From Clostridia bacterium (GTDB lineage: Bacteria > Bacillota > Clostridia > Christensenellales > Pumilibacteraceae): a DNA stretch of 64,000 nt. The DNA lies in the NCBI GenBank assembly GCA_022793815.1, contig JAAWDP010000003.1, forward strand, positions 1 through 64,000, in the 5' to 3' direction. Numbering within the stretch: position 1 is the stretch's first letter; every line of letters begins with the position of its first letter. Shown here one piece after another: positions 35,564-45,955 of this stretch. Under the pieces are notes generated by a model, which made no database searches, was not told the origin of the DNA, and saw only the letters and a program-made list of their open reading frames with translations. The position numbers were made by a program, and so were the translations under genes.

Positions 35564-38434
35564 TCAAGCGGCGACGGATGCTATCGGTTTGTACGGAGAA
35601 GCAATTGCATTATTCGCCGCCTCTATCGCAACGGCGCGGTATGCCTCGTTCACCACGGGCGGAGCAAACGTGCAGGTGTAAAGCGATTTGCCCGTAAGCG
35701 TTCCGACAAGCGTAAGACCTATAAGGTATCTGCCGTAGGAATAGCTCATGTGGTAACCGTCGCGGGTTATAGTGTCGCCTATGAACGACGAACGGGCGTT
35801 CTGGACCGCCGTACCGCTGGGAATAACGAATTCCAGCGTGTCACGCGATTCCACAACCTGCTTGACGGTGTCGGAATTGGCTTGATACATCTTGTTTTGG
35901 TCGGCGTCGTAATATTTTTGGAACGCTTCCAATCTGTCCTTATTACTCACGTCTTGCTGATATGACCAGGTAAGGTGGAAACCGAATCTCGCTTTACAGC
36001 CCTCGGGGAGTTTGCCGCGCACGTAGGAAATGAGTTCGTCCAGCCTGCCGTAGGTATCGGGTCTGCCCGTGGCGTCGCTCTGTTGCTGGAACAGTACGAA
36101 ATCCCAATCCTCGCTTGCTATCGCGTCGCCCATCTTATAGTTGTCTTTCGCTCCGTTTACAAGATTTTCGACCTTGTTTCCGTTTGTGTAAGTGAAATAT
36201 TTATACACGGCGGCATTGTTTTTGGCGTTGTCTGCATGCATGTCTATCGTGCACGCGCTGAGTTTTATGTTGCCTATGACAACGTCTATTCCCATTCCCG
36301 ACGCTATTTCGAAAACATACTCCATCAAGTCTTCCGAATAACTGTTGCCTATCGAAAGAATTTTAAGCACTCCGTCCTTTTTCCAAGCATTGTCTATGAT
36401 GGATTTCTGTGCCGTTTCCGACGTGCGCACTACAACGGTAAGTCCGTTCGGCGCAGCGAACGAAGCGGTGTTTTCTCCGAGAGAGTAATTTTGAGAATTC
36501 AATACGGGCAGCACCAAAGTGTTTGCCGAAGTCGACTTCATCATATAGTCGCAGTGCTTGCAGAGCAATGCCGCCTCGCCCTCTTTTGTCGCGGTAGGTG
36601 CTTTCGTAACAAACCAAGCCATGTCATGAACATTGCCGACGGTCTTGTTTTCGACATGCGCCGCGGTGCTCACTTCTATATAGTCGATACTCGAAGCAAA
36701 TCCGACGGTCGCGTCCTCGTTTGTTTCGTCGTGCTGCATTTCGCACACAACGTCGTTGTCGCCCTCTTTAAGCGAGACGGATGCCGTAAACGTGACCCAG
36801 TCGTGTCCTTTTAAAATCAATGCGGTCGTCTTGCCTGCGTCTTTACTAACCGTGACGTCGTCGGCAAACACGCTTTCTCCGCCGACAGTGACCTTCCACA
36901 GCTTGTTCAGTTCGATGCTCGCCGCGCTCATAACGGGTTTTGCTATACATAATGTCAAAGTCGCCTTTGCCGCCTTGTCGGCCTTCAGTTTGAACTCCAC
37001 CTTATCTCCCGTTTTATAATCGTAAGGGGTTGCCGAGCCCGTCTGATGCGCGGGATTTTTGACGGCGTCGCCGGGATTCAGATATGCCGCGCCGCTTGCT
37101 CTGGCAACATACGCGCCGATGTACGCCACGTCGTTTTTACAGTCCAAACTCGGATAATCCGCCAAAGTTACTTTTCCGTATTCGCTTTCGTAACGGTAGG
37201 TATTAATTTTGCCGAGTGCGGGAATTACCGCGTTTTCAAAAGTAAATGTCTCGGAATCATACTCGTAAGTGTATGTGCCGACGCCGTTTTCCGTTTGGGT
37301 CGCTTCCTTTATCGGCGTACAGGAAGTATAATTTTCGGGTGCGAGTTTGGGCAGTTTGTGCATGGGCGCAACCGCGTTGCATACCGAGCATTTCTTACCC
37401 AGCCAGCCCACCTCTCCGACGGTGGGAGCAACCGCCACTTCCCATTCGCCCGCGTCCGCCGCCACGGTGTGCGAAAATTTTTCCGTTTTATCCGTAAGCA
37501 CCGCGTCCGCCGTGAGTTCTATGTAATCTATGGGACCTGCGTTTGCCGTACCCTTTATCAAAAACTCTATGTCGTTGTCGCCCTTATTCAGTTTGACGTT
37601 CATAACTATGTCTTTCCACTGGAATTCGGAATACGTTATGACGTCTGCATTCGAGTCGCGGTATTCGTCGCCGTTTATCATATCCGCGCCGTACTGGTAC
37701 ATGTTGGATGTGAAATAGCGCTGTTCGCCGTTTACGAACATATCGTACATTGCCGTAAATCTTTTGACCTTGGCTCTCCATCGAGTCTTTTTGGATTCGT
37801 AAGCCGTTCTGTTGCTTACCCTTATCTTGAGCTTCGCCACGGTGTCCTTATCGCTGTTTACCGTCCAGCCGACCCCGTATCTGCCTGCCGCGCCGTCCAC
37901 GGTATTGCCGCCGACACCCGTCTTTCTCACATTGAGAAGATAGCCGCCGCTTGCCTCCGCAGACGGGCTGATATAACTGCAATTGTACTGTTCCGTTGAG
38001 TCTGCTATGATATGTCCCTCTTCCGACTCGAAACGGTAGGTTTTGAGATTGCTTTCGGCGTTTGAAACATTGATACCCGTCACGAAAGCCGTCTTGTCTT
38101 CGTATGTGACCTCGACGAACTTATTTTCTTCGTCGAGCGCGCCCAACTCGGCAACCTTATACTCGGAATCGCTCAGCTCTTTCGATTCGCCGTTATCGTA
38201 CTTTGCCGTAACTTTCATTCCCGACGGGTCGAACGACTCGCCGATTTCGTAAATCATTTTATCCGGATTTTTCGTAATCTCTATTTCCGTGAGCACTTTC
38301 TGCTCGGGCACAGGCGGATTCGGTTCCGGTCCCGGCTCGGGTCCGGGTCCCGGCTTTTCGGCGCCGCATGCCGCAATGCAGCAAAGCGTCAAAGCCATAA
38401 AGATACAAAGCAATATTCTTGCAAATTTCTTCAT
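35564..38434 (-). CDS. Lipoprotein with Ig-like, CBM-like and DUF4886 (SGNH) domains
   Basis: The 956-residue protein has a lipobox IAAC (Cys23) and a Pro/Gly/Glu linker. A bacterial Ig-like domain follows (about 45-120, with the FDPSGMKVTAKY pattern), then two CBM6/35-like beta-sandwiches (starting YRFESEEG and YRYESEYG), each followed by a small CxxC module. At the C terminus (about 690-930) is a DUF4886 domain with GNSYSED as the nucleophile block, the WDFVLFQQQSD block and a late DGYHMS, a GDSL/SGNH-type hydrolase layout. A carbohydrate esterase acting with the GH3 enzyme of the same operon is a fair inference. It is the last gene of that operon. Confidence 0.8.
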   Translation of the reverse strand: MKKFARILLCIFMALTLCCIAACGAEKPGPGPEPGPEPNPPVPEQKVLTEIEITKNPDKMIYEIGESFDPSGMKVTAKYDNGESKELSDSEYKVAELGALDEENKFVEVTYEDKTAFVTGINVSNAESNLKTYRFESEEGHIIADSTEQYNCSYISPSAEASGGYLLNVRKTGVGGNTVDGAAGRYGVGWTVNSDKDTVAKLKIRVSNRTAYESKKTRWRAKVKRFTAMYDMFVNGEQRYFTSNMYQYGADMINGDEYRDSNADVITYSEFQWKDIVMNVKLNKGDNDIEFLIKGTANAGPIDYIELTADAVLTDKTEKFSHTVAADAGEWEVAVAPTVGEVGWLGKKCSVCNAVAPMHKLPKLAPENYTSCTPIKEATQTENGVGTYTYEYDSETFTFENAVIPALGKINTYRYESEYGKVTLADYPSLDCKNDVAYIGAYVARASGAAYLNPGDAVKNPAHQTGSATPYDYKTGDKVEFKLKADKAAKATLTLCIAKPVMSAASIELNKLWKVTVGGESVFADDVTVSKDAGKTTALILKGHDWVTFTASVSLKEGDNDVVCEMQHDETNEDATVGFASSIDYIEVSTAAHVENKTVGNVHDMAWFVTKAPTATKEGEAALLCKHCDYMMKSTSANTLVLPVLNSQNYSLGENTASFAAPNGLTVVVRTSETAQKSIIDNAWKKDGVLKILSIGNSYSEDLMEYVFEIASGMGIDVVIGNIKLSACTIDMHADNAKNNAAVYKYFTYTNGNKVENLVNGAKDNYKMGDAIASEDWDFVLFQQQSDATGRPDTYGRLDELISYVRGKLPEGCKARFGFHLTWSYQQDVSNKDRLEAFQKYYDADQNKMYQANSDTVKQVVESRDTLEFVIPSGTAVQNARSSFIGDTITRDGYHMSYSYGRYLIGLTLVGTLTGKSLYTCTFAPPVVNEAYRAVAIEAANNAIASPYKPIASVAA

Positions 38435-38452: not shown

Positions 38453-40576
38453 TTACGGTTCGGGCTCGGGCGAAGGCTGCTCGGGCTCGGTCGGCGCTTC
38501 CTTTTCCAAATAGTTTATCACTATCGCGCCGCCCTGTACGGGACGATAGGTGTATTCGCCCCAAACCGAACCGTCGGGCATAGTTACCTGTCTGTAATCG
38601 GAATTTTGTTTGCTTATAACGGGAATCTCTATTGTCTTGACGTTTTTGGTTTTCAGCGTCATACCGCAATTCACGCAATTTGCGTCATGCGCCGAACCCG
38701 TTATTTCGTTCGTTTCGGGATTGTCGATATGCCCGGGAACTTTTGTCAGAGTCCAGCCTCTCACATGTGCGACGGTCTTTTCCGTCTTGTCCATAAGTAT
38801 CGCGGTGCTGTCGATTTCGATACAGTCGAAATTGCTTTTGAAGCCGACGGTTTCGTCCTCTTCGTCTTCGTTATGCTGCATTTCGCATACGATTTCGTTG
38901 TCGCCCGATTTCAGCGGCACATTGACTTCGAGAGTTACCCAATCGCAATATGCGGGAGCGGTTTTGGAATTGTTCGCGCTGCCTACGGCAATCATGACGT
39001 CGTCCGCAAAAGCATTTACACCGTTCACTTTGACAAGCCACACTTTGTTTATCTCTATTTCCGCTTTTCCCGAAATGACGGGTTTGGCTACCCGAAGCGC
39101 AAGGTTTGCGGTTACGGCTTTATCGGAGGAAAGCGTATAAGCTATCCTATTGCCAGCCACCCCCATATTGCCGAGGTAGATTTGTCCGCTTGCTTCGGAA
39201 ACGTCGCGCCCGAGTTTCGTGCCGCCCGTTCCGACGTCTGCGCCCGTGCTTACCACGTTGTCGGCGCAGTTGACGTTTTTACCGTCTTCGGTTTTGCCCG
39301 TGACGTGTCCGTCCTCGCCTTCGAGGCGGTAGACATTATGTTTGCCCTTAGCTGGAATAACCGTGTTTTTCAATTCAAACGTCTGACCGTCGAACGAAAA
39401 AGTGTAAGTTCCCAAACCGTCCTCGGTCTCGGTCGCCTCTTTGGTCGCCGTTACCGATTCGTACTTATCGGTTTCGATGAGCGCGGGGATTTTTTCCATA
39501 GCAACGACCTTGTTGCAGACAGCGCAGAGTTTGCCTATCCAGCCCACGTCGTAACGGGAAGGATTCCGAACTATCTCCCACTGTTCGGAGGCATCGTCGG
39601 AAACGGCGTGTTTCGTCGGCTGCGTCTTATCGGTAAGCACGGCGTCCGCGGACACGAGCTCCATATAATCTATCGCGCCTGCGTCCTTGCCTTTGCTGCT
39701 GACGTTGAACCAAATTTCGTTGTCGCCTTTTTTAAGGTCTATGTTGAACTCCACCGTGCGGAACTGATACTGCGAATAAATCTGAATCGAGTTGGAACCA
39801 GTGCCGTAAGCGGTCATCACGGTGTTTTCCTCGAACTTCTCGCCGTTGATGAATATACCCCACATTTCGCTGAGGTTCTTTTTGTAAGCGCGCCAGTTGT
39901 TGTCGGGGTTGTACGCGCCGACGTACTTCGTATCCGTCTTTGTGCGCAGACTGCTTCTTATTCTGAACCTTACCGTGGTGACTTTGTCGCTGTGGACAAC
40001 CCACTTCGGTCCGACGTGAGTAGCGGGATTGTCGGGGTCGGTACCGCCCTTTATGTGGTCGCCGCCCTTATCGTTGTTGCGCACGTCGAGAACATAGCCC
40101 TGACTCGTACCTGCCGCGGGACGTATATAGGAACAGTTGAAAGCGGTGTTTCCTTTGAGTATCTGTGCCTCTTCTGCTTCGAAACGGTAGACCGTGCCCG
40201 TTATTTCGGGGTCCTCGACAAGCACTCCGTCGAAGTGGGTCATCTTGTTTTTATAAATGACCGTGATTTCCTGATTGGGCGTTCTTTCCAACGGACCGCT
40301 CGGGTCTATCTCGTAATCCGTGACGACCTCGGTCGAATAGTCGGAATAGACAGCCGTCACTTCCATCCCCGTCGGGTCGAAAGTTTCGCCCGTGTAATAT
40401 TCCATTTTATCGGGGTATCGGGTGACTTCGATTTTTTCGATTACATTCTCCGGCAAAGGCTTGGGACCCGGATTAGGGGCGTCGGGTGTTTTGCCGCCGC
40501 ATGCCGCAAACGCGCAAATGCTCAATACCATAACCGAGGCAAACAGCATGCCCAGCAGTTTTTTGAATTTCGCCAT
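38453..40576 (-). CDS. Lipoprotein with Ig-like and CBM-like domains, paralogue of the next gene
   Basis: The 707-residue protein has a lipobox FAAC (Cys26) followed by a Pro-rich linker. An Ig-like domain comes next (FDPTGMEVTAVY), then two CBM6/35-like domains (YRFEAEEA and YRLEGEDG), each followed by a CxxC module (CAVCN, CVNCG). It ends in an acidic Pro/Glu tail with no hydrolase domain. The domain order and many residues match the 956-residue lipoprotein 18 bases downstream, so they arose by duplication and one kept or gained the DUF4886 domain. Probably binds glycans at the cell surface for the GH3 enzyme. Confidence 0.78.
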   Translation of the reverse strand: MAKFKKLLGMLFASVMVLSICAFAACGGKTPDAPNPGPKPLPENVIEKIEVTRYPDKMEYYTGETFDPTGMEVTAVYSDYSTEVVTDYEIDPSGPLERTPNQEITVIYKNKMTHFDGVLVEDPEITGTVYRFEAEEAQILKGNTAFNCSYIRPAAGTSQGYVLDVRNNDKGGDHIKGGTDPDNPATHVGPKWVVHSDKVTTVRFRIRSSLRTKTDTKYVGAYNPDNNWRAYKKNLSEMWGIFINGEKFEENTVMTAYGTGSNSIQIYSQYQFRTVEFNIDLKKGDNEIWFNVSSKGKDAGAIDYMELVSADAVLTDKTQPTKHAVSDDASEQWEIVRNPSRYDVGWIGKLCAVCNKVVAMEKIPALIETDKYESVTATKEATETEDGLGTYTFSFDGQTFELKNTVIPAKGKHNVYRLEGEDGHVTGKTEDGKNVNCADNVVSTGADVGTGGTKLGRDVSEASGQIYLGNMGVAGNRIAYTLSSDKAVTANLALRVAKPVISGKAEIEINKVWLVKVNGVNAFADDVMIAVGSANNSKTAPAYCDWVTLEVNVPLKSGDNEIVCEMQHNEDEEDETVGFKSNFDCIEIDSTAILMDKTEKTVAHVRGWTLTKVPGHIDNPETNEITGSAHDANCVNCGMTLKTKNVKTIEIPVISKQNSDYRQVTMPDGSVWGEYTYRPVQGGAIVINYLEKEAPTEPEQPSPEPEP

Positions 40577-40624: not shown

Positions 40625-43600
40625 TTACATTGCTTCTTCGCTTATCTGCCGCTTCTTATTCAGATACACCGCCGCTATTTCATAGGCAAGAAACAGCGCG
40701 CTGAGTACCGCCAGCACGGTTATTACGATTTTGCCGACTTCGAGAGCCGTGACCCACGCGGGTGTTATTTTGATGAAAATAGTGCTTGCGCTGACACCGT
40801 TCATTACGTTTGAATGAACTACGGTATACAGAACGTGGTGCGCGGATTCACGCATTGCCCACGCCATTTCCGAATAATACTTTTCGTATTTTTCGAATAC
40901 GCCCGTCACCTGCCCGTCGGGCAAATCGTTGCCGTTGAGCACACCGACGGGATAGAACATATACGATTGTTTATAGTCGGAAACCGCTATACCCGTCATT
41001 CCGAATTCCCCGTGAAGCACGCTCTTGCAGAAGCCCTGCGCTCCCGACCAAGTTGCTCCGAGCGCATTATAGCCCGTCATGACGCCTTCCACGCCGCCGA
41101 CCTCGATTGCTATTTGGAATGCTTTGAGGTAAACTTCGCGCATGGTCTGCTCGTTGAACCAAGTATTTATACCGTGACGATTGGTTTCCTGGTCGTTGAG
41201 CACACAGTGTTTGAGATAGATGTAAAGTCCTTTTTCGCTCATGCCCTCGCTCATAGCGGCAATGCTCATGCCCGAAAGAAAAGGGTCTTCGCTGTAATAC
41301 TCGAAATTGCGTCCGTTGTAAGCCGCGCGGTATAGGTTGCCGCCCGGTCCGTAAAGACCGTTATAACCCACCCACAAAGCGTCCTCGCCCCATTGCTCGC
41401 CGAGACGTTTCTGCAAATCGTGATTGAAGGTGGACGCCACCGTCGCATTGCAGGGATAAGTATTGCTTTGGTTGCCCGTGATTCTCGGGTCGTTTTTATC
41501 CGCGAGCATATACTCCTGACCGCGCGTATTCGTCTGCCAGTTTTTCACGCCGCCGCTGCCGTTATGGTCCAGCGTTTCGGGCTTGCCCAAACGGTTGAGT
41601 CCTACGGTGGTTCTGAAACCGTTGCTTAAAAGCGCAACCGTTTCTTTAAAAGTCAGCTGATCCAAAAACTCGTCCCACAGCGGGTCGTCGTAAGGAATCC
41701 ACTCGTCGGTAGGCTCTCCGTTTTCGTCGGAGAAAACGCGCAAATCGATAAGCAGCAGTCCGTTGTCCTGCCCGTATTTCGGGTACTCTTTTATTTCGGT
41801 ATCCCTTTCGAGCGCGCTGCCCTGAGAAATGTTGTACATCTCGTTCATCTTAGCCGTGCGTGCAAGCGATACGCCCTTTGTCGGAAGCGTTCCCGCCCAG
41901 TCGCTGCGCGTCGTATATTTGAAGTCGGCGGCGTTTGCTCCGTCGGGTTCGAACAAAAGGATGTCCGCGTCGTCGAAACGGTTGACTATCGGGGTGCCGT
42001 TTGCGGACTTGGAATAAGCCGTCGTATTAAGCGACTTTTCATTATAGGACTTGACGAGATTTTTGTCGCCGAGAGTAGTGCTGCCGCGCGCCGAAAGTTT
42101 GGATTCCGCCACGTTTTTGGCTTTGAGAATATTGTTTGCCGCATCGTGCGCGTCGCGGGCCGCGGTAAAATAATAATCGCCTGCGTCCACTATGTACGTA
42201 CGTGCTTTGTATGCGTCGTAAGAGGCAAACTCGCGCCGGTTTACTTCGACGCTCACGGTTTCGCTTGCGCCCGCATCGAGCACTTGCGTTTTTGCGTAGC
42301 CTACAAGTTCGACCGAGGCTTTTTCTATTTTATTTTCAATGTCGTAGTCCGTGTACGGTTTTTGCAGATAGAACTGCACCGCTTCTTTACCCGCCTTGCT
42401 TCCCGTGTTAGTAACTTTCACGCTGAGCGTGTAAACGTCCTTGACGGGTCCCGTGACCTTGAAATCGGAATAAGCGAAATCGGTATAGGAAAGTCCGTAG
42501 CCGAACGGATATTCCACCGCTCCGTAATAATCGAACGCGCCCGCATTGCCTCGCCCCGTGACCGAGTCTTCATAGCGCGTTTCGGTATAGCGGTAGCCCA
42601 TGTAGATGCCTTCCTGATAGACCACATAGTTTTTTCTTATCGCATCGCCGCTTCCGCCCGAATAAGTAAAGTTTCCGAAGTTGACCATCGCGGGATTTGC
42701 CGAGTGGTCTTTCCAAAAGGTCGCGGAAAGTTTGCCCGACGGATTTACCTTTCCGGCAAGAATGTTTCCTATCGCTCTCGTTCCGCCTATCGAGCGGTTG
42801 CCCGCTATGCCGTATGTACCGCCGCCTCCGAGCGAGCCCGTCCACAAAAGAGCGTCTACGCCGAGCGCAGGGTCGTCGAGTCCGCAGACTTGGTAAGCGC
42901 TGTTCATTATGACAACGATTTTGCCGAACGTGCCCTTCTCTTTCTCCGCTTTGAGGTTTTTGAGAACATCGAGTTCGGTTGGCGAAAGCGCAAGATAGTC
43001 GCCGTCCGTCATATCGTTTTTATCGCCGGTATTTATATCGAGGTCCGCGCCCTCTCCGCCCATACGCGCAATCACGAAAACCGCGGCATCCGCTTTTGCG
43101 GTCTTGGCGTTTGTCGTTATCTGAGACCAGCTTGCGTCGCCTATCGACCAATATTTAGCCGTGCCCGAGCCTGTGCCCTGACGCGCATAGTTTTTGTTGG
43201 CTTTATACCAATCGTAAAGTTCGTCGTTGACTTTGAGTCCCGCGGATTTAAGACCCTCCCGCATCAAATCGTTGCCGGGTTTGGTCTTGTCGTTTCCGCC
43301 GCTGCCCGTACCCGTAAGCGCGGGATATACGCTGCTTGCGCCGAACAGGCTGACGCTTGCCCCGTCTTTGAGAGGCAGAGCATTTTCGTTTTTGAGAAGC
43401 ACCGAGCCTTCCGCCACTATTTCCTCGGATATTTTATCGCTGTTTTCTATGACGGAGTCGAGGCTTTCGTTTACGCTTTTATAATATGTATAATCCTTTT
43501 CTTCGCCGTCGTCCTCTTTATCTATGCGTTGCTGAGTCTGTATTCCGAAGAAACTGTTGATTGCAATACTGTTTTCCGTAAGAATGCCTCCGCCCACAAA

Positions 43601-43687
43601 AACAAGCGCCGTAAGCACGACGAATACATAACACAAAATCTTTGACAAAAGCAGCATTGCGCTGTTGCTAAGCGGTAACTTTTTCAT
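40625..43687 (-). CDS. Membrane-bound, circularly permuted GH3 glycoside hydrolase
   Basis: The 1,020-residue protein has a membrane helix near each end (about 13-33 and 985-1007). The GH3 domains are in reversed order. The C-type alpha/beta sandwich comes first (EGSVLLKNENALPL near 92-105), then the fibronectin-III-like domain (about 390-490), and last the catalytic TIM-barrel, with the KHCVLND block and the nucleophile region GIAVSDY. This permuted order is known from Ruminococcus and Butyrivibrio beta-glucosidases. The two helices would hold it on the membrane with the catalytic part outside. Substrate is uncertain (beta-glucoside or related). It overlaps the upstream membrane-protein gene by 20 bases. 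Confidence 0.88.
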   Translation of the reverse strand: MKKLPLSNSAMLLLSKILCYVFVVLTALVFVGGGILTENSIAINSFFGIQTQQRIDKEDDGEEKDYTYYKSVNESLDSVIENSDKISEEIVAEGSVLLKNENALPLKDGASVSLFGASSVYPALTGTGSGGNDKTKPGNDLMREGLKSAGLKVNDELYDWYKANKNYARQGTGSGTAKYWSIGDASWSQITTNAKTAKADAAVFVIARMGGEGADLDINTGDKNDMTDGDYLALSPTELDVLKNLKAEKEKGTFGKIVVIMNSAYQVCGLDDPALGVDALLWTGSLGGGGTYGIAGNRSIGGTRAIGNILAGKVNPSGKLSATFWKDHSANPAMVNFGNFTYSGGSGDAIRKNYVVYQEGIYMGYRYTETRYEDSVTGRGNAGAFDYYGAVEYPFGYGLSYTDFAYSDFKVTGPVKDVYTLSVKVTNTGSKAGKEAVQFYLQKPYTDYDIENKIEKASVELVGYAKTQVLDAGASETVSVEVNRREFASYDAYKARTYIVDAGDYYFTAARDAHDAANNILKAKNVAESKLSARGSTTLGDKNLVKSYNEKSLNTTAYSKSANGTPIVNRFDDADILLFEPDGANAADFKYTTRSDWAGTLPTKGVSLARTAKMNEMYNISQGSALERDTEIKEYPKYGQDNGLLLIDLRVFSDENGEPTDEWIPYDDPLWDEFLDQLTFKETVALLSNGFRTTVGLNRLGKPETLDHNGSGGVKNWQTNTRGQEYMLADKNDPRITGNQSNTYPCNATVASTFNHDLQKRLGEQWGEDALWVGYNGLYGPGGNLYRAAYNGRNFEYYSEDPFLSGMSIAAMSEGMSEKGLYIYLKHCVLNDQETNRHGINTWFNEQTMREVYLKAFQIAIEVGGVEGVMTGYNALGATWSGAQGFCKSVLHGEFGMTGIAVSDYKQSYMFYPVGVLNGNDLPDGQVTGVFEKYEKYYSEMAWAMRESAHHVLYTVVHSNVMNGVSASTIFIKITPAWVTALEVGKIVITVLAVLSALFLAYEIAAVYLNKKRQISEEAM

Positions 43688-44150
43688 CTGTTTTCTCCTT
43701 CCATTTCTTATCCGATTTGTTTACGCACATGAATATACCTACCGAGGAAAGTACCCATACCGCAAGATAAGCCACCACGGTAAACGCATACCCGAATTCC
43801 ATTATTTCGAACGCTTTGAAAAACTGTTCTACGCTCGTCACCTCGAAAAAAACCGCCGACAAATACACGTAGCTGGATTGATTAAACAGCATAAACGCCG
43901 TCAGCGTGCACAAAAACAATGCCGCCGCCGCATATCGCTCGGTTACTTTGAACGCCGACATAACGCCGAACGCCGCCACCCCGAGCAAAGATACAAGCAG
44001 CACGCTCACCTCGAAATTGAGGTTGATGTGCTCGCTCAGGCTGAACGTAACCGAGTAAATTATTACCGCAACGAACAGCAATGCCGCACCCGCCAGCGAA
44101 ACAAAAAAGCCTGCGCTTTTGGATTTGAAAAAATCTTTGATTTTTTCCAT
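43668..44150 (-). CDS. Four-helix membrane protein, first gene of the GH3 operon
   Basis: The 160-residue protein has four predicted membrane helices (about 13-33, 45-63, 72-90, 118-138) and short charged ends; I do not recognise the family. ATG 44150 has AAGGAG upstream, and the gene's end overlaps the GH3 start by 20 bases, so the two are coupled. It is the first gene after the promoter with the poly-G spacer. It may assist or anchor the GH3 enzyme, but nothing in the sequence shows this. Confidence 0.7.
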   Translation of the reverse strand: MEKIKDFFKSKSAGFFVSLAGAALLFVAVIIYSVTFSLSEHINLNFEVSVLLVSLLGVAAFGVMSAFKVTERYAAAALFLCTLTAFMLFNQSSYVYLSAVFFEVTSVEQFFKAFEIMEFGYAFTVVAYLAVWVLSSVGIFMCVNKSDKKWKEKTDEKVTA

Positions 44151-44240
44151 CTATTCATTTTCTCCTTACAGTATTTACTTAGTCAGGGGGACAACTTTCA
44201 CCGAAAAAGCGCATATTATTCCCATAAATAAGATACCTCT

Positions 44241-44267
44241 ATTATACACCCCCCCCCGAAAAGTCAA
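44241..44267 (-). promoter_or_regulatory. Promoter of the GH3 operon with a G9 tract in the spacer (candidate phase-variable)
   Basis: On the minus strand TTGACT (44267-44262) and TATAAT (44246-44241) are separated by 15 bases, nine of which are a run of G (44257-44249). Fifteen is two short of the ideal 17. Gain or loss of G by slippage would change the spacing and hence promoter strength, as known for porA of Neisseria. The leader is about 85 bases to ATG 44150. Confidence 0.7.
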
Positions 44268-44327
44268 TTGCAAAAACATTTCATTTTATTGCGTTTTTTA
44301 CAATATTTATTTTTTGCCGTTATATGA

Positions 44328-44355
44328 GAAAAACCGACGGATAAATCCGTCGGTT
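44328..44355 (-). terminator. Terminator of the ABC-F gene
   Basis: AACCGACGGAT (44332-44342) pairs with ATCCGTCGGTT (44345-44355); on the minus strand a T run follows. Confidence 0.85.
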
Positions 44356-44377
44356 TCGGTGGGTTCGTGTTGTTTTT

Positions 44378-45955
44378 TCAGTCGGTGAGTTCGAGGTATT
44401 CGTCGTATGTGGTTTCCTTATCGAACACCTTTGTCCCGTCAATCTCTATTATTCGGTTGGCAACCGTCTGAATGATTTCTTCGTCGTGCGTAACGAACAG
44501 CATATTCCCTTTGAAATTCGTCATGCCCTTATTTAGCGCGGTTATGCTTTCCAAATCGAGGTGGTTGGTCGGCTCGTCGAATATGAGGAAGTTTGCCTGC
44601 GAAAGCATCATTTTAGCCAGCATACAGCGCACCTTTTCTCCGCCCGAAAGCACATTGGCTTTTTTGAGCGCTTCCTGTCCCGAAAACAGCATTCTGCCCA
44701 ACCAGCCGCGCAAATACTCTTCGTAATGTTCTTTGGAATACTGACTGAGCCACTCGACCAAAGACAGTTCGCAACCGTCGAAAAAGTTATCGTAATTTTG
44801 CGGCATATATGCCGGAATAACGGTTTTACCCCACTTGACCGTGCCTGCGTCGGGCTGCTGCAATCCCATTATACAATCGAACATTACCGACAGCGTATGG
44901 CTGTTCGAGCAGATAAAACCTATCTTTTCGTCGTGTTTGAGTTTGAAAGACACATTTTCGAAAAGTCCTTTCTTGGTAAGTCCTTCTACTTCGAGAATCT
45001 CGTTGCCTATTTCGCGCTCGTACTTGAAATCGATAAACGGATAGCGGCGAGAGGACGGCTGAATGTCCTCCAACTTGATTTTTTCCAGTTCGCGCTTGCG
45101 GCTTGTCGCTTGTTTGGACTTGGACGCATTTGCCGAAAATCGGGCAATGAAATCCTGCAATTCCTTCGCGCGCGCTTCGAGTTTCTTATTTTGCTCCTTG
45201 CTCTGACGCAGCGCAAGCTGACTGGTTTCGTACCAAAAATCGTAATTGCCGACATAGATGCGGATTTGTCTGAAATCCACGTCGCAAATATGGGTGCAAA
45301 CTCTGTTGAGGAAGTGACGGTTATGCGACACTATGATTATGGTGGTGTCGTCCAAAGTCATGAGGTAGTCTTCCAGCCACTTCACGCTTTTCGCGTCGAG
45401 GTTATTGGTGGGCTCGTCCAGCACCAGTATATCGGGTCTGCCGAACAGCGCCTGCGCCAAAAGCACTTTGACCTTTATCTTCGGGTCTATCGTGCCCATG
45501 ACCTCATAGAAAAGCGCGGAATCGACTTTCAGGCTGTTAAGCAGCGTTTCCGCGTCCGACTCGGCTTCATAGCCGTTCATGTCAGCAAACTCGCCCTCAA
45601 GCTCCGCCGCCTTTACTCCGTCCTCGTCAGTAAAGTCGGGTTTTGCGTAAAGTCTTTCGCGCTCGGCTTTGACTTCCATAAGACGCTTGTGTCCCCACAT
45701 AACCGTGTCCAGCACGGTGCAGGAGTCGTAAGCGTTCTGGTTTTGGGCAAGCACGCTCATGCGCTCGTTCTTATCGACGGATATTTCGCCCTTGTTCGGT
45801 TCCATTTCACCCGACAAAAGTTTCAGAAAAGTGGACTTACCCGCGCCGTTTGCGCCGATAACGCCGTAGCAGTTGCCTTTGGTGAATTTGAGGTTTACGT
45901 TGTCGAACAGCACGCGGCTGCCGAACTGCAAACTGACATTGTTACACTGTATCAT
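44378..45955 (-). CDS. ABC-F family ATPase (YkpA/YbiT-like)
   Basis: The 525-residue soluble protein has two ABC domains. The first has Walker A GANGAGKST (about 34-42) and LDEPTNNLD; the second has signature LSGGEK and FDEPTNHLD. They are joined by a basic linker near 240-310, and there are no membrane helices. ABC-F proteins act on the ribosome as translation factors or antibiotic-protection factors; the length and linker fit the YkpA/YbiT housekeeping group. The first domain's signature region (MGTIDPKIKVKVLLAQ) lacks the usual SGG, as in that group. The second Walker A is also poor (CSNSHTLS in place of GxxGxGKS), which would weaken ATP binding at one site. It is alone between terminators. 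Confidence 0.88.
   Translation of the reverse strand: MIQCNNVSLQFGSRVLFDNVNLKFTKGNCYGVIGANGAGKSTFLKLLSGEMEPNKGEISVDKNERMSVLAQNQNAYDSCTVLDTVMWGHKRLMEVKAERERLYAKPDFTDEDGVKAAELEGEFADMNGYEAESDAETLLNSLKVDSALFYEVMGTIDPKIKVKVLLAQALFGRPDILVLDEPTNNLDAKSVKWLEDYLMTLDDTTIIIVSHNRHFLNRVCTHICDVDFRQIRIYVGNYDFWYETSQLALRQSKEQNKKLEARAKELQDFIARFSANASKSKQATSRKRELEKIKLEDIQPSSRRYPFIDFKYEREIGNEILEVEGLTKKGLFENVSFKLKHDEKIGFICSNSHTLSVMFDCIMGLQQPDAGTVKWGKTVIPAYMPQNYDNFFDGCELSLVEWLSQYSKEHYEEYLRGWLGRMLFSGQEALKKANVLSGGEKVRCMLAKMMLSQANFLIFDEPTNHLDLESITALNKGMTNFKGNMLFVTHDEEIIQTVANRIIEIDGTKVFDKETTYDEYLELTD

Follow-up and report, generated by a model that had tools for sequence, protein, structure and literature searches.

A nine-G tract in the spacer of a GH3 operon promoter as a probable phase-variation switch in a Clostridia bacterium

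The likely promoter of a GH3 operon in a Clostridia bacterium carries a run of nine G between its −35 and −10 boxes, and this run is probably a slipped-strand phase-variation switch, one of a set of promoters that would be off by default and would serve bet hedging. The window (the whole stretch of 64,000 nucleotides that was analysed) belongs to a genome of 1.71 Mb in 26 contigs (G000). Judged by pattern, its promoter is a member of an order-wide class and not a single case. The single mechanism is already known from Neisseria; slippage within the population, the output in transcription and the selective benefit are what we infer here. The bacterium is likely gut-dwelling, going by the initial annotation and by the record names of its relatives.

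The window promoter and its operon

On the minus strand from 44267 to 44241 the promoter reads TTGACT-TTTC-GGGGGGGGG-TG-TATAAT. The −35 box TTGACT occupies 44262-44267 (AGTCAA on the plus strand), the G9 tract 44249-44257 (nine C on the plus strand) within a spacer of 15 bp, and the −10 box TATAAT 44241-44246 (ATTATA on the plus strand), so that an exact match to the pattern used below spans 44241-44267 (contig C15 of G000). The initial annotation had described TTGACT and TATAAT as lying 15 bases apart with nine G between them, and the sequence bears this out; its arithmetic, by which two more G would bring the spacing to 17 bp, also holds. Runs of G or C with lengths of 3, 4, 5 and 6 occur 804, 113, 23 and 2 times in the window, those of 7 and 8 are absent and a single run has 9; the G9 run exceeds chance. 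At the tract, a DNA fold gave no stable hairpin, with a model that omits G-quadruplexes. Rfam at the gathering threshold reported a tRNA and nothing else over the whole window.

The ATG of the operon's first gene lies 90 bp past the −10 box. This gene (43668-44150, minus strand) encodes a small protein of 160 aa whose membrane nature was read from its sequence; the ORF has no Pfam match, and a protein search returned 7 entries, one of them 99% identical, that added no context. It is followed by a permuted GH3 enzyme (40625-43687, minus strand) in which Pfam places Glyco_hydro_3_C (96-365) and Fn3-like (435-510) ahead of the Glyco_hydro_3 N-terminal domain (742-906), then by a 707-aa protein with a Big_3 domain (38453-40576, minus strand) and a 956-aa protein with Big_3 and DUF4886 domains (35564-38434, minus strand). 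The operon is thus made up as first described, of a membrane protein, a permuted GH3 enzyme whose C-terminal domain comes first and two further proteins, both with Big_3. The GH3 enzyme is predicted to be a cell-surface enzyme that cuts sugars.

Upstream, on the same minus strand, stands a gene for an ABC ATPase with ABC_tran_Xtn (ABC-F-like by Pfam; 44378-45955). A fold of 44300-44385 yielded a 12-pair hairpin with a U run ending its 3′ arm (z −2.79), which we take as a predicted intrinsic terminator at 44330-44357 (minus strand). Because this hairpin is predicted to close the ABC gene, the operon likely needs a promoter of its own. On the minus strand between 44300 and the GH3 start, a scan with spacers of 16-18 bp found no second promoter, and the three weak matches within the operon genes (42069, 38749 and 38283, minus strand) are fewer than the 7.7 expected from shuffles. 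In the sister species (G001), the counterpart of the ABC gene, assigned by synteny from a DNA match, also precedes a G9 promoter with a spacer of 15. An invertible promoter was considered and set aside, since near-perfect inverted repeats flanking the promoter are absent from 43200-45200. That interval holds four inverted pairs of 18-21 nt with 76-83% complementarity, three of which span the promoter with their arms 845-1290 nt apart within the neighbouring genes.

G tracts and GH3 loci in this genome

Throughout G000, runs of 7, 8, 9 and 10 G number 1, 6, 19 and 2, which gives a hump at 9 in place of a decaying tail. Each of the 21 tracts of nine or more G was read individually. Promoter-like boxes (score of at least 9 of 12) flank 11 of them, comprising six exact TTGAC..TATAAT promoters, three with weaker −10 boxes (TATCCT, TACAAT and TAGACT) and two marginal cases (L059 and L065); the other ten include tracts in coding sequence. 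With six exact promoters of the same type in one genome, the finding is larger than the initial annotation saw. Two of the six have a spacer of 17, and three belong to paralogous permuted-GH3 operons (the window, L068 and L076). A G8 tract also stands ahead of a GH3 gene, between TTGACA and TATTAT at a spacer of 15.

The GH3 enzyme of the window, used as a query against its own genome, gave 37 matches that were merged by hand into 28 loci on contigs C6, C7, C8, C9, C11, C13, C15, C17, C19, C20 and C23. Some 28 permuted-GH3 paralogs in 1.71 Mb is an unusually large expansion. Of the 21 tracts with nine or more G, 13 lie no more than 3 kb from a GH3 locus, a neighbourhood that covers 13% of the genome (binomial p 2e-7). 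GH3 genes stand behind tract promoters in the window and at L068, L076 and L072, and also at L063, where a Big_3 gene comes between.

A few observations accompany this clustering. A small membrane protein comes ahead of the GH3 gene in the window, at L072 and at L076, and the 160-aa protein of the window is weakly similar (E 4e-4) to the small protein that precedes the GH3 of L076. At L070 (G000:C15:91758-91766) a G9 run falls within a permuted-GH3 ORF, at about residue 344 of 1052, and at L067 (G000:C11:129613-129621) another lies mid-gene in an AraC-type regulator near a GH3.

Tract promoters across the family, order and phylum

The arrangement recurs among relatives and keeps its orientation. 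The pattern G8-N0-6-TATAAT was found in 35 of the 74 genomes of the family, with 81 distinct tracts (5 in G000), and its reversed control gave 3 matches. Of 396 genomes sampled across the order, 57 carry the fuller pattern TTGAC-N0-9-G8-N0-9-TATAAT (24 of 142 genera) and 339 lack it; the reversed control was found in 0 of the 396. A single genome holds up to 11 exact matches (G001). Among 299 genomes of the phylum, the pattern was present in 6, namely G000 and five others, one match each (control, 2 matches); the five positives outside the order come from 298 phylum genomes.

Spacing of the boxes and position of the tract

Ordinary TTGACA..TATAAT promoters without a tract, 93 from G000 and at least 52 from G001, are spaced at 17-18 bp in 130 of the 145 listed (17 bp in 89 and 18 bp in 41). 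Promoters with exactly five consecutive G, which serve as a control for G-richness over 74 family genomes, are at 17-18 bp in 53 of 61 distinct cases. The tract promoters, of which at least 135 occur in genomes of the order and 128 among those listed are distinct, avoid this range. Spacers of 17-18 bp account for 18 of the 128, vs 45 at 16, 19 at 15, 15 at 19 and 9 at 20 bp, and the difference has a Fisher p of 1e-39 against ordinary promoters and 9e-23 against the G5-run promoters, with relatedness handled by collapsing identical strings alone. Promoters with exactly nine G show the same valley, with 35, 2, 2 and 11 at 16, 17, 18 and 19 bp. It is present both within the family of the window (8 of 53 at 17-18 bp) and within other families (10 of 76). 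Another set, which overlaps with the first and was chosen by a box score of at least 11, has 17 of 64 at 17-18 bp and so a weaker avoidance, under a scoring that breaks ties towards 17. Taken together, 60 of the 128 distinct promoters sit at 16 or 19 bp, a single slip from the 17-18 range. Because the assembled alleles avoid 17-18 bp, a default state that is low or off is suggested. For the window promoter, whose spacer is 15 bp where ordinary promoters have 17-18, the earlier proposal of a low or off sequenced state is supported as a prediction.

The tract itself floats between the boxes. It begins 0-9 bases from TTGAC and ends 0-9 bases before TATAAT, with every value populated up to the bound that the pattern sets, and its length ranges from 8 (the lower bound of the pattern) to 15, with G9 in 78 of the 135 listed. 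Because the tract lies anywhere between the boxes, a protein site in a fixed register is unlikely.

Matching promoters with different tracts

Several pairs of matching promoters differ in the length of the tract, and three of these pairs agree in both boxes and in every remaining base of the spacer. L287 and L288, from the species G335 and G278 with a matching start of the downstream gene, have G8 and G9; L285 and L286, two copies within G162 that are 95.5% identical over 625 bp, have G11 and G12; and L289 and L290, from G002 and G095 with 88% identity over 2.9 kb, have G9 and G5. The G5 allele of L290 (G095:C2) has a spacer of 12 and has probably lost its function, which may be where such a switch ends up. 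In the pair L291 and L292, G9 against G8 is joined by a difference in one neighbouring base. In the assembly G089, two contigs overlap at one promoter, where the 27 bases flanking the tract on either side agree but one contig has G8 and the other G10; sequencing stutter, or a pair of repeats, might account for this. Other cases speak against variation: G9 is shared by each of four paralogous promoters in G171, by two near-matching promoters of G420 that differ in one base beside the tract, and by two viral contigs from separate records. In G001, the tract promoters L101, L102, L104 and L106 are near-identical and several stand at contig ends, as if cassettes had been copied between loci. Tracts near the contig ends of this genome were discounted as length polymorphism; identical promoter copies at several ends explain them equally well.

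Mismatch repair

A mutator background, caused by loss of mismatch repair, was considered as the origin of the tracts and is not supported, judged on MutS alone. The genome of the window has a full-length mutS1, and 55 of 61 genomes are above the cut-off for this gene. Among 24 genomes, most of them from clades rich in tracts, MutS is above the cut-off in 23; G055, with one tract promoter, lacks it. With MutS present, any slippage would have to occur without a mutator background, which counts against the switch.

Genes behind the tract promoters

Eighty-nine tract sites have a box score of at least 9; dropping the 18 with a score below 10 left 71, of which 20 have no ORF within 300 bp according to a simple ORF picker. 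Several of these 20 are at contig ends, and the window is among them, its 160-aa gene having been missed by the picker. The 51 first ORFs within 300 bp begin a median of 46 bp past the −10 box and include LRR_5 (6), Flg_new (6), ABC_tran (5), GH3_C (4), LytTR (4) and Response_reg (4), with others besides. Among second genes, GHKL kinases are foremost (4 of 29). A crude hydropathy scan found at least one hydrophobic segment in 42 of the 51 first ORFs.

Runs of seven to nine G also end the genes of LytTR-type response regulators at L062, L065, L077, L268 and L274, close to where a kinase-like gene begins. The Pfam basis at these junctions is the kinase of L065 together with the shortened regulator of L062. 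A change of one base in such a run would alter the tail of the regulator and its overlap with the next start, which would make it a possible translational switch.

Proposed mechanism and alternatives

The initial annotation had likened the promoter to the phase-variable promoter of porA, and this likeness is supported as an inference by the oriented enrichment, the floating tract and the avoidance of 17-18 bp relative to ordinary and G5-run promoters. Replication slippage would add or drop a G, and the spacer would thereby enter or leave the 17-18-bp range. The 15-bp allele in the window would be low or off, and a G11 allele would reach a spacer of 17. Nearly half of the sequenced alleles, those at 16 or 19 bp, would be one slip from ON, with the proviso that a 16-bp spacer need not mean off (compare porA with 10G, just 2-fold lower). 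Repeated over the genome and the order, often ahead of surface, transport and two-component genes, the design would let a minority of cells switch on any one locus at random. We lean, by a modest degree, towards a broader form of this proposal, a lottery throughout an order of uncultured gut Clostridia in which surface glycosidases, adhesin-like lipoproteins, transporters and two-component systems would sit behind off-by-one G-tract promoters with rare cells ON for each locus, and in which, in this genome, the tracts would gather around some 28 permuted-GH3 loci and the runs at LytTR junctions would form a second, translational tier.

In an alternative that we regard as unlikely, a regulator, such as a MerR-like activator that twists the spacer or a LytTR protein, would bind the G run as a fixed operator or structural element, and the length of the run would be no switch. 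Spacers of 19-20 and 15-16 bp would suit a promoter that needs distortion of the DNA, and LytTR two-component genes are among the cargo. Yet the tract varies in its distance from both boxes and lacks dyad symmetry, its lengths range from 8 to 15, and the DNA fold offers no stable hairpin, G-quadruplexes being outside the model. A MerR-type operator would be a dyad at a fixed register within a 19-20-bp spacer, whereas the spacers here are mainly 15-16 bp. The tracts might instead be mutational by-products, held near nine by a neutral equilibrium of slippage and located in spacers without selected function. Such an origin would fit the presence of G9 runs in coding sequence and the genome-wide hump at nine, but it would favour neither orientation (the reversed control is empty in all 396 genomes), would not avoid 17-18 bp and would not bring 13 of the 21 G9+ tracts into the 13% of the genome that lies within 3 kb of a GH3 locus; we hold it to be very unlikely.

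A technical explanation has also to be weighed, in which short-read assembly miscounts the tract, a true G10 being called G9, and the off-by-one spacing is an artefact of promoters that really stand at 17. The genomes for which contig numbers are given are multi-contig drafts and G9 far outnumbers every other length (78 of 135 listed), both of which such a miscount would accommodate. If every tract were called one G short, the true spacing would shift from 16 to 17, but equally from 19 to 20 and from 15 to 16; one such shift does not produce peaks on both sides of 17-18. Miscounting would also leave the oriented enrichment and the floating position untouched, and we judge it improbable. Slipped-strand switching is our preferred reading.

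Relation to known systems

In Neisseria meningitidis porA, in the portion of the report cited here, 11G gives high levels of the surface protein, 10G gives 2-fold and 9G 13-fold lower levels, with alleles named by tract and not by spacer length (PMC3639595). As in porA, a poly-G run lies between the −10 and −35 boxes, and promoter strength is expected to depend on how long it is. The porA switch, in a Gram-negative bacterium, has been demonstrated by experiment, whereas the one proposed here is read from sequence. Relative to porA, the present case has up to 11 exact matches per genome, extends over an order, places the tract anywhere in the spacer and has alleles that are mostly off the optimum.

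The switches of the Campylobacter phasome are mostly in-gene frame switches. In that phasome, as the cited part of the source describes it, many hypermutable simple-sequence repeats per genome switch expression (PMC6321876); here, in contrast, an oriented class lies in promoter spacers and MutS is present. For the sortase-dependent pili of Bifidobacterium breve UCC2003, the cited part of the report describes G-tract slippage that was shown by maximum-depth sequencing and shifted in mice, and it mentions other G-tracts within promoter spacers (PMC9187656). This system is alike in being a gut Gram-positive commensal with G-tract slippage. It differs in that, as far as the cited part goes, the pilus tracts are inside genes and switch the reading frame, with promoter-spacer tracts mentioned in passing, and in belonging to another phylum. 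Among the papers listed by searches of the open PMC literature there was no precedent in Clostridia-like bacteria for a promoter class that spans many loci and a whole order and is mostly in the off state, the nearest being, within the part cited, the spacer mention in the Bifidobacterium paper (PMC9187656). If the proposal is true, assemblies and isolates of these bacteria under-report the functions that they can express, and counts of G in metagenomic reads could reveal ON and OFF states directly. The tract promoters are also a natural library of spacer-length variants for studies of promoter spacing.

Viral contigs

The promoter pattern was also present in 11 viral contigs (L159-L169). These were considered as a source of near-identical sequences with differing tracts, and they yielded no test of slippage. 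For one contig, the best 80 of 151 relatives, itself aside, share no more than 62% identity in the protein that was compared, and among them the pattern is in the contig itself alone; for a second, the sole relatives are two identical contigs with the same G9. In L160 and L162 the pattern lies beyond the 3′ end of, and on the same strand as, a tail-sheath-like gene whose function was read by eye.
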